Of a stretch of 64,000 nucleotides of DNA, positions 38,776-56,322 are shown one piece after another. The notes beneath the pieces are model-generated. The model ran no database searches. It saw only the letters and a list, made by a program, of their open reading frames with translations, and was not told the DNA's origin. The stretch's first letter is position 1; every line of letters begins with the position of its first letter. The DNA is taken from the NCBI GenBank assembly GCA_905182425.1, contig CAJJBP010000009.1, positions 1 to 64,000 of the forward strand, given 5' to 3'. The position numbers and the translations under genes were made by a program. Source of the stretch: an uncultured Planktomarina sp. GTDB lineage: Bacteria; Pseudomonadota; Alphaproteobacteria; Rhodobacterales; Rhodobacteraceae.

Positions 38776-39477
38776 ATGATGATTGAACAAGTATTTGATA
38801 AGTCGCGAAGACCGGGATGGATTGCCTCCATGCGGTCAAACTTCCTTACTGGTCTTATCATTATAACGCCAATTGCACTAACAATCTGGCTTATCTGGTC
38901 AGTTGTTGGATGGATTGATGCACGGGTCTGGGCAATTGTCCCAGATGCCTATCAGCCGCACCGCTACATTCAAACACTCTATAATATTCAGATCAGCGAA
39001 CAGTATGACATTCCTGGTATCGGTTTGGTTGTATTCTTAGTGTTCACTATTTTCGTTGGCTGGATGGGCAAAGGCTTTGTTGGTCGGTCATTGATTAGAT
39101 GGGCCGAAAGAATGGTCAATCGGATGCCTGTAGTCCGTTCCGTCTATAGTGGAGCGAAGCAAATTTCTGAAACTGTGTTAAACAAGAAAAATAATAGTTT
39201 TGATAAGGCCTGCCTCATTGAATATCCACGTAAGGGTATTTGGGCAATTGGATTTGTATCAACCAAAGCCCGAGGCGAAATTGCAAATTTATCTCCAGAA
39301 GGAGAAGAGTTAATCTCTATTTTTGTCCCAACAACCCCAAATCCCACGTCTGGATTTCTGCTTTTCTTTCCGTCAACGGATATAAGGGAACTAGACATGT
39401 CTGTTGAAGATGCGGCCAAATTAGTTATCTCGGCCGGTCTTGTTTACCCAAACGAACTGAGTGAAATTAATCAATAA
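38776..39477 (+). CDS. DUF502-family membrane protein
   Basis: A 233-aa protein with two membrane segments near the N-terminus, FLTGLIIITPIALTIWLIW (about 23-41) and IGLVVFLVFTIFVGWMG (about 81-97). A conserved cytoplasmic part follows: VNRMPVVRSVYSGAKQISET and PTTPNPTSGFLLFFP. This is the DUF502 layout, of unknown function. The stop overlaps the next start (TAATG), so it is coupled to the ArgO/LysE exporter gene. Confidence 0.9.
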   Translation: MMIEQVFDKSRRPGWIASMRSNFLTGLIIITPIALTIWLIWSVVGWIDARVWAIVPDAYQPHRYIQTLYNIQISEQYDIPGIGLVVFLVFTIFVGWMGKGFVGRSLIRWAERMVNRMPVVRSVYSGAKQISETVLNKKNNSFDKACLIEYPRKGIWAIGFVSTKARGEIANLSPEGEELISIFVPTTPNPTSGFLLFFPSTDIRELDMSVEDAAKLVISAGLVYPNELSEINQ

Positions 39478-40079
39478 TGACTGCTTTTATTACTGGGCTC
39501 ATAACACAGCTGTCGTTAATACTTGCAGTTGGGGCCCAAAACGCCTTTATTTTAAGACAGGGTTTGGTTCGAAATCATATACTTTTGGTTTGCTTTGTCG
39601 CCGCTCTTTGCGACTCAATCCTTATTTTCATGGGCGTCCTGACTTTCGGTGCAATTGGTTGGATGGGCCCAAGCTTAATTATCATCATAACCTATTCAGG
39701 AGCAGCGTTTTTAGTGGTTTACGGGGTGTTAAGATTAAGAGCGGCTTACCGCGGGTCCTATCTCATGGAGCTAAGTGAACAGACCCCAGGCCTTCGTAGA
39801 ACTCTGATTATGTTAGCTGGTTTTACCTTTCTTAATCCTCACGTATATTTGGATACTTTGGGGTTGATTGGTGCAGTTTCCACCCAATTTGCTGATTTTT
39901 GGAGCAAAGTCAGCTTCGCGTTTGGAGCATGCATTGGATCATTTGTCTTCTTTTTTAGCTTAGGCTTAGGCGCCCAGTTCCTGTCTCCTTGGATGAGTTC
40001 CGTTAGAGCTTGGCGCATCTTGGATATTCTCGTCGGTTTTACAATGTTTATAATAGCTGCTCTCTTAATTTCTCATTAA
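39477..40079 (+). CDS. LysE/ArgO-type amino acid exporter
   Basis: A 200-aa inner-membrane protein with about six hydrophobic segments. The family motif near the N-terminus is LILAVGAQNAFILRQGL (about 14-30), and FTFLNPHVYLDTLGLIG is near residue 115. ArgO/LysE proteins export basic amino acids such as lysine and arginine; the substrate here is inferred from family. It overlaps the DUF502 stop. The 3' end overlaps the U-run of the minus-strand small-RNA candidate. Confidence 0.88.
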   Translation: MTAFITGLITQLSLILAVGAQNAFILRQGLVRNHILLVCFVAALCDSILIFMGVLTFGAIGWMGPSLIIIITYSGAAFLVVYGVLRLRAAYRGSYLMELSEQTPGLRRTLIMLAGFTFLNPHVYLDTLGLIGAVSTQFADFWSKVSFAFGACIGSFVFFFSLGLGAQFLSPWMSSVRAWRILDILVGFTMFIIAALLISH

Positions 40080-40106
40080 AAAAAACGCCAGCACGAAGCT
40101 GGCGTT
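40078..40106 (-). terminator. Terminator of the small-RNA candidate
   Basis: A perfect 9-bp stem AACGCCAGC (40084-40092)/GCTGGCGTT (40098-40106). An A-run on the plus strand (40078-40085) becomes a U8 tract only in the minus direction. On the plus strand the stem is followed by GAGTTATT, so it is at best a weak terminator for argO. Confidence 0.8.
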
Positions 40107-40152
40107 GAGTTATTGAGGCAGGTTTCATACAGGCACGAAACCTATCGAGCAG
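40078..40152 (-). ncRNA. Candidate small RNA, minus strand, about 75 nt
   Basis: Read on the minus strand, a good sigma70-like promoter (40159-40187) is followed by a transcript starting near 40152. It begins GTACTGCTCGAT, forms a 7-bp hairpin AGGTTTC/GAAACCT with a 10-base loop, continues through an unpaired pyrimidine-rich linker (TGCCTCAATAACTCA) and ends in the hairpin AACGCCAGC-TTCGT-GCTGGCGTT followed by T8 in total. No ORF fits inside. The layout is that of a trans-acting regulatory RNA. I cannot match it to a named family. The start site and expression are inferred. Confidence 0.55.
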
Positions 40153-40158
40153 TACCCC

Positions 40159-40187
40159 CTTATAAGCAATCTATCACACCGCTCCAA
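40159..40187 (-). promoter_or_regulatory. Predicted sigma70-type promoter of the small-RNA candidate
   Basis: On the minus strand, TTGGAG (40182-40187) and TATAAG (40159-40164) are separated by exactly 17 bases. The -10 element matches five of six consensus positions and the -35 element about half. The predicted start is about seven bases downstream. Confidence 0.5.
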
Positions 40188-40264
40188 GCTAAAAGTTTGA
40201 AAAATTGGAAATGGCGCTGTAGCGTTAACTATAACGTAAAAGTAAACCTAGGGATTTAGGCAAA

Positions 40265-42082
40265 ATGGAATACTCAAATATTAGACTGACCCAGTTTTTT
40301 GTAGCCGTCATCACAGGCATGGCTCTAAGCATAGGGGAGCCAACGCAGAACCTAAACATGGCATAGCTATGTATGGCGAACCTGCTCTACCACACGATTT
40401 TGTGTCACTCCCCTATGCAAATCCCAATGCGCCCAAAGGTGGAAAGATCATCTCAGCAGAAGGGGGAACCTTCACCTCGCTTAATCCTCACGTTCGGAAA
40501 GGTAACGTCCCATGGCAACTACGCTTTCTAACATCAGAGAGCTTAATGGGTAGATCCTATGACGAACCCTTCTCACTTTACGGGCTTTTAGCCGAATCAA
40601 TTGAGACAGATAAAGATCGTCTCTGGGTCGAATTCAGCCTTAACGCAAAAGCCCGATTCTCTGATGGCAGCCCAGTTACTGTAGAAGACGTTATGTGGTC
40701 TTATGAGACTTTAGGTACAATTGGCCATCCACGTTACCACGGACTTTGGAAAAAAATTAAATCAATCGAAAAAACTGGCGCCCTGAAAGTAAGATTTACA
40801 TTTAAACGCAGACCGCGAGTTAGCACTTTTAGTTGGGTTGCGGCCCATTTTGAAAAAAGCTCAGTGGGACGGAAAGGATTTTGTAAATTCCGGCCTTAAT
40901 GAGGTGCCTCTCTCAAGTGCTCCCTACGTCATTACAGATTTTGACGCTGGCAACTACGTTCGGCTTACCCGAAATCCAGATTACTGGGGCGCAGATGTAA
41001 GTTTTCGCCGAGGGACAGCCAACTTTGACGAAATTCGTATGGATTTTTACGCAGATGGATCAGTTCAATTCGAAGCATTTAAAGGCGGGGAATCTTCATC
41101 CTTTCGGGAATTAAACGCAGAACGATGGGAAACGTCATATAACTTTCCAGCCGTTGAAAGCGGAGACATTGTTAAGTCTCTTATTCCCCATAAACGGCCA
41201 AGCGGAATTACTGGCTACGTAATGAATACACGCCAGTCAAAATTCCAGGATTGGAGGGTGCGCCAAGCTCTGATCAATGCTTTTAATTTTGAATTCATAA
41301 ACCAAGCTAATACTGGCGGTCGTCAAAAACGCATTACCTCATATTTTTCGAACTCAGTTTTAGCCTTAAAGCCAGGCCATGCTAGTGGGCGGGTTTTGGA
41401 GTTTCTTGAGCCTCATCAAGAAGAATTATTACCAGGGACCATAGAGGGATACACTCTGCCTGCTTCAAACGGTACTGTTCGTAACCGTGCGAATATACTT
41501 ATTGCAGACGATCTATTGAACCAAGCTGGCTGGGTAGTTGACGACGGGAAGCGAAAAAACGCCAAGGGTGAAGAGTTCACGATAACCGTTTTATTGAAGC
41601 AGGGTGATACTGAGAGCCAATCAATGATGGACATTTATCAACAGTCATTAGAACGTTTAGGCATTACTTTGACCTCTGAAGTAATTGATTCAGCTCAATA
41701 TAAAGAGAGGACGCAGGTCTATGATTTTGATATGGCTTATTACCGTCGCGGATTATCACTGAGCCCAGGCAACGAGCAAATGCTTTACTGGGGCGCGGAA
41801 GGTATAGAAAAACCAGGTACTCGAAACTGGATGGGTATGGACTCAACTGCCGCGGAAGACATGATTAATCGTCTAGTAACTTCGAATAGTCACGACGACT
41901 TTCTTGCTGCCGCCAAGGCGCTTGATAGAATTTTGATTGCCGGCCGATATGTCATTCCTACGCACACTAATAACATTAGCCGCTTGGCACATGTGAAAGA
42001 AATCAAATTTCCAGATCATCTCCCAATGTATGGCGATTGGATTGGATTTCTTCCAGATGTCTGGTGGTTTGATCCTAATTAG
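40265..42082 (+). CDS. YejA-like ABC transporter substrate-binding protein, two frameshifts
   Basis: Family 5 extracellular solute-binding protein, closest in appearance to YejA (peptide/microcin C uptake), about 605 aa if repaired. From the ATG at 40265 a signal peptide is read (FFVAVITGMALSIGGANA then EPKHGIAMYGEPALPHDF) once a missing G in GGGG at 40334-40337 is restored. A second break, an extra A in AAA at 40804-40806, is bridged by FNADRELALLVGLRPILKKA. The remainder runs cleanly to 42082 with YVITDFDAGNYVRLTRNPDY and ITGYVMNTRQSKFQDWRVRQ. No yejB/E/F permease or ATPase genes are adjacent. Confidence 0.85.
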
Positions 42083-56088: not shown

Positions 56089-56322
56089 CTATTCTTCGCC
56101 ATCATATAGCGAAATAACTTGAGACGGCATTATAGTAGAGATGGCATGCTTATAAACCAATTGCGACTGACCATCTCGCCGCAATAGAACACAAAAGTTA
56201 TCAAACCACGTTATAATTCCTTGCAGTTTCACACCATTGATTAAAAAAACTGTTACTGGTACCTTAGATTTTCGAATTTGGTTTAAAAACGCATCTTGTA
56301 AGTTTTGCTTATCGGAAGCCAT
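56089..56322 (-). CDS. hfq: RNA chaperone Hfq
   Basis: Hfq, 77 aa, a hexameric Sm-like RNA chaperone that pairs small RNAs with targets. Sm1 includes [20 protein letters not shown] and [18 protein letters not shown]; Sm2 has [14 protein letters not shown]. Its short C-terminus is typical for Alphaproteobacteria. It lies six bases before the hflX start, the common hfq-hflX pair. It is a natural partner for the small RNA proposed at 40078-40152. Confidence 0.97.

Follow-up and report, generated by a model that had tools for sequence, protein, structure and literature searches.

The window (the whole 64,000-nucleotide stretch of DNA analysed here) carries a compact small-RNA (sRNA) gene on the minus strand at 40078..40153, whose transcript would measure at most 76 nt, or about 72-76 nt depending on the termination point within its U-run, with both ends placed by sequence reading. 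Its promoter reads as a -35 element TTGGAG (40182..40187) and a -10 element TATAAG (40159..40164) separated by 17 nt on the minus strand, and the probable start is A40153. From there the RNA runs through a 5' segment CTGCTCG (nt 2-8; 40146..40152), the complement of CGAGCAG, a stretch that relatives carry in their mraZ leader (UpsM), and a first hairpin TAGGTTTC-loop-GAAACCTG (nt 10-35; 40119..40144) obtained by both folding and alignment. The segment TGCCTGTATGAAACCTGC (nt 19-36; 40118..40135), complementary to GCAGGTTTCATACAGGCA as found in relatives' mraZ leaders, lies largely within this hairpin, and just before it nt 18 in the loop region (40136) is G in the window and T in 28 of the 29 other aligned copies, with a gap in the remaining one; this is the one loop-region substitution of the window copy against its aligned relatives. 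A linker CCTCAATAACT (40108..40118), mostly unpaired in the predicted fold and nearly invariant over its first half in the alignment, leads to a terminator hairpin AACGCCAGC-TTCGT-GCTGGCGTT of 9 pairs (40084..40106), detected by a terminator scan and covarying in its stem among relatives, and then to a U8 tract (40078..40085), all of them on the minus strand. On the minus strand no ORF reaching 40 aa overlaps 40078-40153, and the plus strand reads the same terminator hairpin followed by GAGTTATTG, with no T run; since the U-run exists on the minus side only, the hairpin is not an intrinsic terminator for the adjoining argO. The preliminary description of the locus had proposed a compact minus-strand sRNA with its own promoter, hairpin, linker and U8 terminator, on a strand without a protein gene, with a U-run in the minus direction only so that the hairpin was not simply the argO terminator, and with hfq in the same window (56113-56301, minus strand); the sequence agrees on each of these points, and conservation confirms the gene.

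Downstream, the sRNA meets an argO/lysE-type amino-acid exporter gene (39477..40079, plus strand; PF01810, E 1.3e-26; TIGR00948 and NF006801 below cut-offs), which converges on it and whose stop codon (40077-40079) falls within the U-run, so that the ends of the two genes coincide (40077-40085). Upstream lies a divergent gene for a YejA-like oligopeptide-binding protein (40265..42082, plus strand; main pieces 40369-40899 and 40838-42082, PF00496 in both). This gene shows at least two frame changes in the window (in the signal-peptide region and near 40840-40900) and could represent either a pseudogene or an error in the assembly; in the nearest relative (genome G017, locus L002) yejA is a single open frame to the end of the 3.1-kb locus. 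The divergent arrangement with yejA recurs in 123 of 135 scorable loci, and a short-chain dehydrogenase gene follows the sRNA in 83 of 127 scored loci (Pfam family confirmed in two examples), unlike in the window, where argO follows; Cereibacter flavus and many relatives have the dehydrogenase arrangement. We take this enzyme to be 3-hydroxybutyrate dehydrogenase; a search for literature on the neighbour RSP_0827 and on the 3-hydroxybutyrate dehydrogenase link returned nothing usable.

Between the sRNA and yejA lies a highly conserved 15-bp block, CAAACTTTTAGCTTG (40185..40199), which sits at about -48 to -36 of the sRNA and holds part of the sRNA -35 element together with the -35 of a candidate divergent yejA promoter (TTGAAA at 40197-40202, a spacer of 17 nt and TAGCGT; plus strand, 40197-40225). 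Of 123 loci with yejA, 111 contained the block, against none of 12 loci lacking the gene, with four more unscored; yejA was scored by short protein motifs and the counts ignore shared ancestry. Because the block tracks the presence of yejA, it is more likely part of the yejA promoter than of the sRNA promoter, and to judge by its distribution it probably serves yejA rather than the sRNA. As a regulator site for the sRNA it was set aside, given that it follows yejA and not the sRNA. The block motif occurs once in the window, against 0.84 occurrences expected by chance. In Neomegalonema (loci L045, L110 and L118; mraZ leaders L252, L259 and L261) the sRNA is found with no yejA upstream.

Across 160 distinct upstream regions the promoter consensus is CTTGGA (CTTGGA/C when the last position is left open) and TATAAA, at a distance that places the start at the first A of ACTGCTCG; T-35, G-33, T-12, A-11 and T-10 are each conserved in at least 94% of the regions, and a T run of at least 6 closes 158 of 160 tails. 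The available parts of PMC10673084 give TTG at -35 and TAT at -12 as the RpoHI/RpoHII promoter pattern, and both are conserved in these 160 regions, although the elements also fit other sigma factors. Of RpoH-type proteins, the window genome encodes one that passes the curated cut-off and a second, RpoH-like, that falls short of it. A strict sigma-70 scan did not list the sRNA promoter, and a scan of 2.5 kb found 2 terminators against 2.9 +/- 1.7 in shuffled sequence; the promoter and the terminator, each in isolation, are not beyond chance. Folding gave a stronger signal, with 74 nt of the transcript reaching -27.6 kcal/mol (shuffles, -14.1 +/- 2.6; z -5.3; matched by 0 of 200). The region also folds well on its plus strand (101 nt; z -3.5), so the strand is not given by folding alone.

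DNA similarity to the 131-bp region was detected in 34 of 61 genomes, comprising 34 of 37 from the same family and none of 24 others, and the three misses within the family (G006, G008 and G015) are assemblies of 67-86% completeness. Thirty loci from this search were read, the four weaker matches having no locus to read. The preliminary description had named loss of the promoter and first hairpin in close relatives as the observation that would speak against the gene; both are recognisable in all 30 loci, with the -35 and upstream part varying in a few. Built from 30 copies, that of the window among them, a covariance model scored the window copy at 102 bits (40078-40154). It matched every genome in a draw from the order (292 of 292, spanning 113 of 113 genera), and each of these genomes is listed under the same family as the window. 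The loci read among these matches were the best 20 of 292 by score. Named carriers, among the matches listed by a separate scan with a pattern inside the core, include Ruegeria pomeroyi, Paracoccus, Cereibacter flavus, an uncultured Planktomarina and Neomegalonema. In a class-wide draw the model matched 7 of 289 genomes (four of the family and three of the other 285, at 31 bits), with 262 unmatched genomes not listed by kinship; the three out-of-family matches were set aside as plain GC-rich terminators that do not include the core. Six of the 292 genomes (G215, G221, G258, G279, G347 and G361) held a second match to the model.

The consensus transcript starts ACTGCTCGATAGGTTTCTTGCCTGTATGAAACCTGCCTCA. 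In the first stem, 9 predicted pairs are identical in 30 of 30 aligned copies, part of which were selected by a pattern inside the stem. Part of the aligned loci were fetched by this core-internal pattern (among the matches listed), so that some of their invariance there follows from the selection; the 30 similarity-search loci were chosen independently of it. The terminator stem shows compensatory change, with double changes in 6 of 17 pairs and column pair 60-71 changed on both sides in 12 of 30 copies. One pattern match, on a contig titled Bacteroidales (L058), was set aside because only the short pattern matched and the 5' end was missing, and it was skipped in the upstream-region and context counts. 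Conservation of the promoter and core, together with the model matches, marks the sRNA as a real gene whose promoter and terminator architecture is kept across the family.

The preliminary description left the sRNA unassigned to any known family, an assessment that we revise, since it matches StsR by size, promoter elements and, in relatives, complementarity to UpsM. The defining StsR paper is reportedly that of Grutzner et al. 2021. In the available passages of PMC8307010, StsR of Rhodobacter sphaeroides (formerly RSs0827) is a 72-nt, Hfq-bound RNA under RpoHI/RpoHII control, named for its binding to UpsM, which arises when transcription terminates within the mraZ/dcw leader. The accessible part of PMC5089854 describes UpsM and this leader as a feature of the Rhodobacteraceae, and StsR binding is reported to change UpsM structure and lead to RNase E cleavage in that of PMC8625941. 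Like that RNA, the sRNA of the window has a length near 72 nt (72-76 nt by our reading), its own promoter with TTG and TAT elements and an intrinsic terminator; and as expected of a partner of UpsM, it is predicted to be complementary to the mraZ/dcw leader in relatives. UpsM, derived from the mraZ 5'-UTR, is the proposed partner, a separate and longer RNA from another locus and not the window's gene. The identification rests on the published R. sphaeroides description rather than on its sequence, and the nearest stand-in is the copy of Cereibacter flavus (L123); a species of Cereibacter, the genus in which R. sphaeroides is now placed according to the accessible text of PMC11354728, carries the same RNA as the window.

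In Rfam, only a tRNA passes over the whole window, and a 341-base local scan gave a best E of 0.73, with six hits of 8-19.5 bits against gathering cut-offs of 39-55 (RyhB, NsiR1, STnc370 and others) that we judged to be chance, all being far below their gathering scores. Six short stretches of the sRNA were not found printed in the literature searched, and the accessible portion of PMC4809877 gave no means of matching the sRNA to an entry of the Ruegeria pomeroyi sRNA list. The available parts of PMC5107571 report two expressed Paracoccus denitrificans RNAs, 'intergenic 60' and 'intergenic 134' (80 and 84 nt), as conserved in many Rhodobacteraceae, the former with Planktomarina temperata in its list. 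By description, which is the basis of this comparison, they differ from the window sRNA in range, since 'intergenic 60' is also reported in Sphingomonadales and 'intergenic 134' far outside the family (same source), whereas the window sRNA stayed within the family in the order and class draws. With high probability the sRNA belongs to a known RNA kind, StsR, that is absent from Rfam: it is present in every one of the 292 genomes sampled from the order, yet Rfam release 15 gives no match.

We consider it very probable that the sRNA gene is that of StsR in a marine bacterium of the Planktomarina clade (Rhodobacteraceae), with the UpsM mechanism as the best explanation of its function. On this account, an RpoH-type sigma factor would transcribe the RNA of about 72-76 nt under stress or in stationary phase, and Hfq would bind it. 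Its nt 2-8 and the hairpin segment at nt ~19-36 would then pair at two sites, separated by 40-47 nt, of the mraZ/dcw leader and of UpsM, the abundant RNA expected from termination in that leader. Pairing would expose an RNase E site, UpsM would be cut, dcw mRNA would fall and growth would slow. For the window organism, transcription itself, the sigma factor involved, binding by Hfq and cleavage by RNase E are presumed here by homology with R. sphaeroides StsR, for which they have been published. If the account is right, cell division in the marine Planktomarina group may be held back under stress by this gene, and the analysis yields a covariance model and a two-site pairing prediction with which to pursue it.

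Because StsR is defined by its binding to UpsM, complementarity to the mraZ leader served as the identity test. Searches for mraZ matched 26 of 27 genomes (all except G071), and searches for UpsM-like DNA matched 16 of 20 (the window's genome and 19 of its genus). Relatives with both loci numbered 36, leaving out G006, G071 and, for want of an UpsM match, G000, G008, G015 and G018. Their mraZ leaders carry ATACAGGC in 34 of 36 and CGAGCAG in 30 of 36, the complements of two separate StsR segments; these counts include G014 (ATACAGGC) and G019 (both sites) by direct reading of the locus, the script alone giving 32 and 29. In leaders with both sites (one search set), start-to-start spacing was 40-47 nt. 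Among 21 genomes from other genera than the window's, 15 can form 16-18 contiguous pairs when their own StsR is set against the leader, exceeding all 60 shuffles for each; in the other six the run is 10-13 pairs, which falls inside the shuffle range. In a set of 21 leaders, duplexes with the consensus StsR ranged from -38.7 to -49.6 kcal/mol, where shuffles averaged -31.6 to -37.2, the weakest contrast being in Jannaschia (L166; -39.0 against -35.6 +/- 2.8). Jannaschia aquimarina (G068) has degenerate sites only (AACAGGC and GGTGAGCAG), with little excess energy, and the G005 leader has CATGCAGGC, in which G-U replaces one pair, and CGAGCAT. Predicted two-site complementarity between StsR and the mraZ leader thus holds in relatives, as a matter of sequence.

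Within the genus the sites are weaker: mid-site mismatches break site 1 in 8 of 15 members, and 7 of 12 script-scored leaders have 10 contiguous pairs only, no better than shuffles by that measure. The nearest relative (G017) has one mismatch in each of the two sites. Co-folded with the UpsM stretch of G017 or G007, the window RNA showed a computed net gain of -22.1 or -17.1 kcal/mol, respectively. The window's own assembly (84% complete) gave neither an mraZ nor an UpsM match, and G006 has an UpsM site with no StsR match in its 80%-complete assembly. Thirteen additional, more divergent genomes in which mraZ was found, counted apart from the 36, gave 16-19 contiguous pairs with the consensus StsR in five and 9-13 in eight by script, as raw counts outside the shuffle comparison; the leader of one of the eight (G636) carries GCAGGTTTCTACAGGC and CGAGCAG by reading. 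Two Neomegalonema genomes have a 19-nt pairing in a shifted register (TGAGGCAGGTTTCGTACAG or TTGAGGCAGGTTTCGTACA) and a third has 12 nt (TGAGGCAGGTTT). The 19-nt pairing covers the linker CCTGCCTCA, which indicates that the linker would be used in mraZ-leader pairing in these two of three genomes.

This bears on the proposal of the preliminary description that the TGCCTC core of the linker could pair with GAGG-type ribosome-binding sites; as its main pairing this is not supported. The best conserved predicted pairing is instead that of nt ~19-36 and nt 2-8 with the mraZ leader, and on these predictions pairing with a division-gene leader replaces ribosome-binding-site pairing, which is not the best-supported mechanism. 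A broader form of the proposal, in which the RNA is a conserved orphan other than StsR that pairs with many ribosome-binding sites through this linker and has the mraZ leader as one target among many, could draw on the mostly unpaired state of the linker in the predicted fold and on the 40-nt core, which stays near-invariant despite drift of the mraZ sites and so suggests constraints beyond one partner. We regard it as unlikely nonetheless, because size, promoter type and partner fit StsR, the linker and stem themselves join the mraZ-leader pairing in the two Neomegalonema genomes, rpoE showed no clear excess in 8 loci, and no target of the ribosome-binding-site type came to light in comparisons directed at the mraZ leader and rpoE. 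It is scarcely credible that the region is only an argO/yejA intergenic terminator with no regulatory RNA. A strong terminator-like hairpin does stand directly at the end of argO, but its U-run is restricted to the minus side, and the gene past the terminator varies (short-chain dehydrogenase in 83 of 127 loci, argO in the window). Even next to genes other than argO, the promoter and the first 40 nt remain conserved, and substitutions in the terminator stem are compensatory, which contradicts a terminator alone. Another known Alphaproteobacteria sRNA family is likewise highly improbable. The CcsR or 'cuckoo' RNAs have the hallmark motif CCUCCUCCC, which is absent from the transcript. Further Hfq-associated R. 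sphaeroides sRNAs do exist according to the available passages of PMC8307010, but the region has no Rfam match, its best E of 0.73 in the 341-base scan and all its other hits lying far below gathering scores.

StsR, the reading that we prefer, has a second target in R. sphaeroides, where according to the same passages it also lowers rpoE mRNA by pairing just after the start codon (PMC8307010). Unlike there, rpoE pairing was not seen here. Eight of 18 chrR-linked loci were evaluated with the consensus sRNA (the other 10 gave no start by motif search), and seven of these, the window's own genome included, showed no excess complementarity; the remaining locus (L211), whose start codon is doubtful, ranked in the top 5% against its background. 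These eight loci therefore do not establish rpoE as a second, conserved target. Between lineages the mraZ-leader sites drift and change register, yet the 40-nt core hardly varies, and many UpsM sites in Planktomarina are weakened. A core fixed beyond the need of UpsM would point to further conserved targets. It is thus conceivable, if rather doubtful, that StsR is a family-wide hub RNA under stricter conservation than UpsM pairing alone requires, and that in Planktomarina its main role may have moved to other targets.

In one subclade of the genus (sRNA loci L016, L017 and L018) the hairpin loop is shifted to CTGCCTGTATAG, and the corresponding UpsM sites (L187, L188 and L189) read TTTTATAC in two of three and CGAGCAC in all three. 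The loop shift and the UpsM change might be a case of co-change, although G012, G013 and G019 carry TTTTATAC too, with the usual sRNA.
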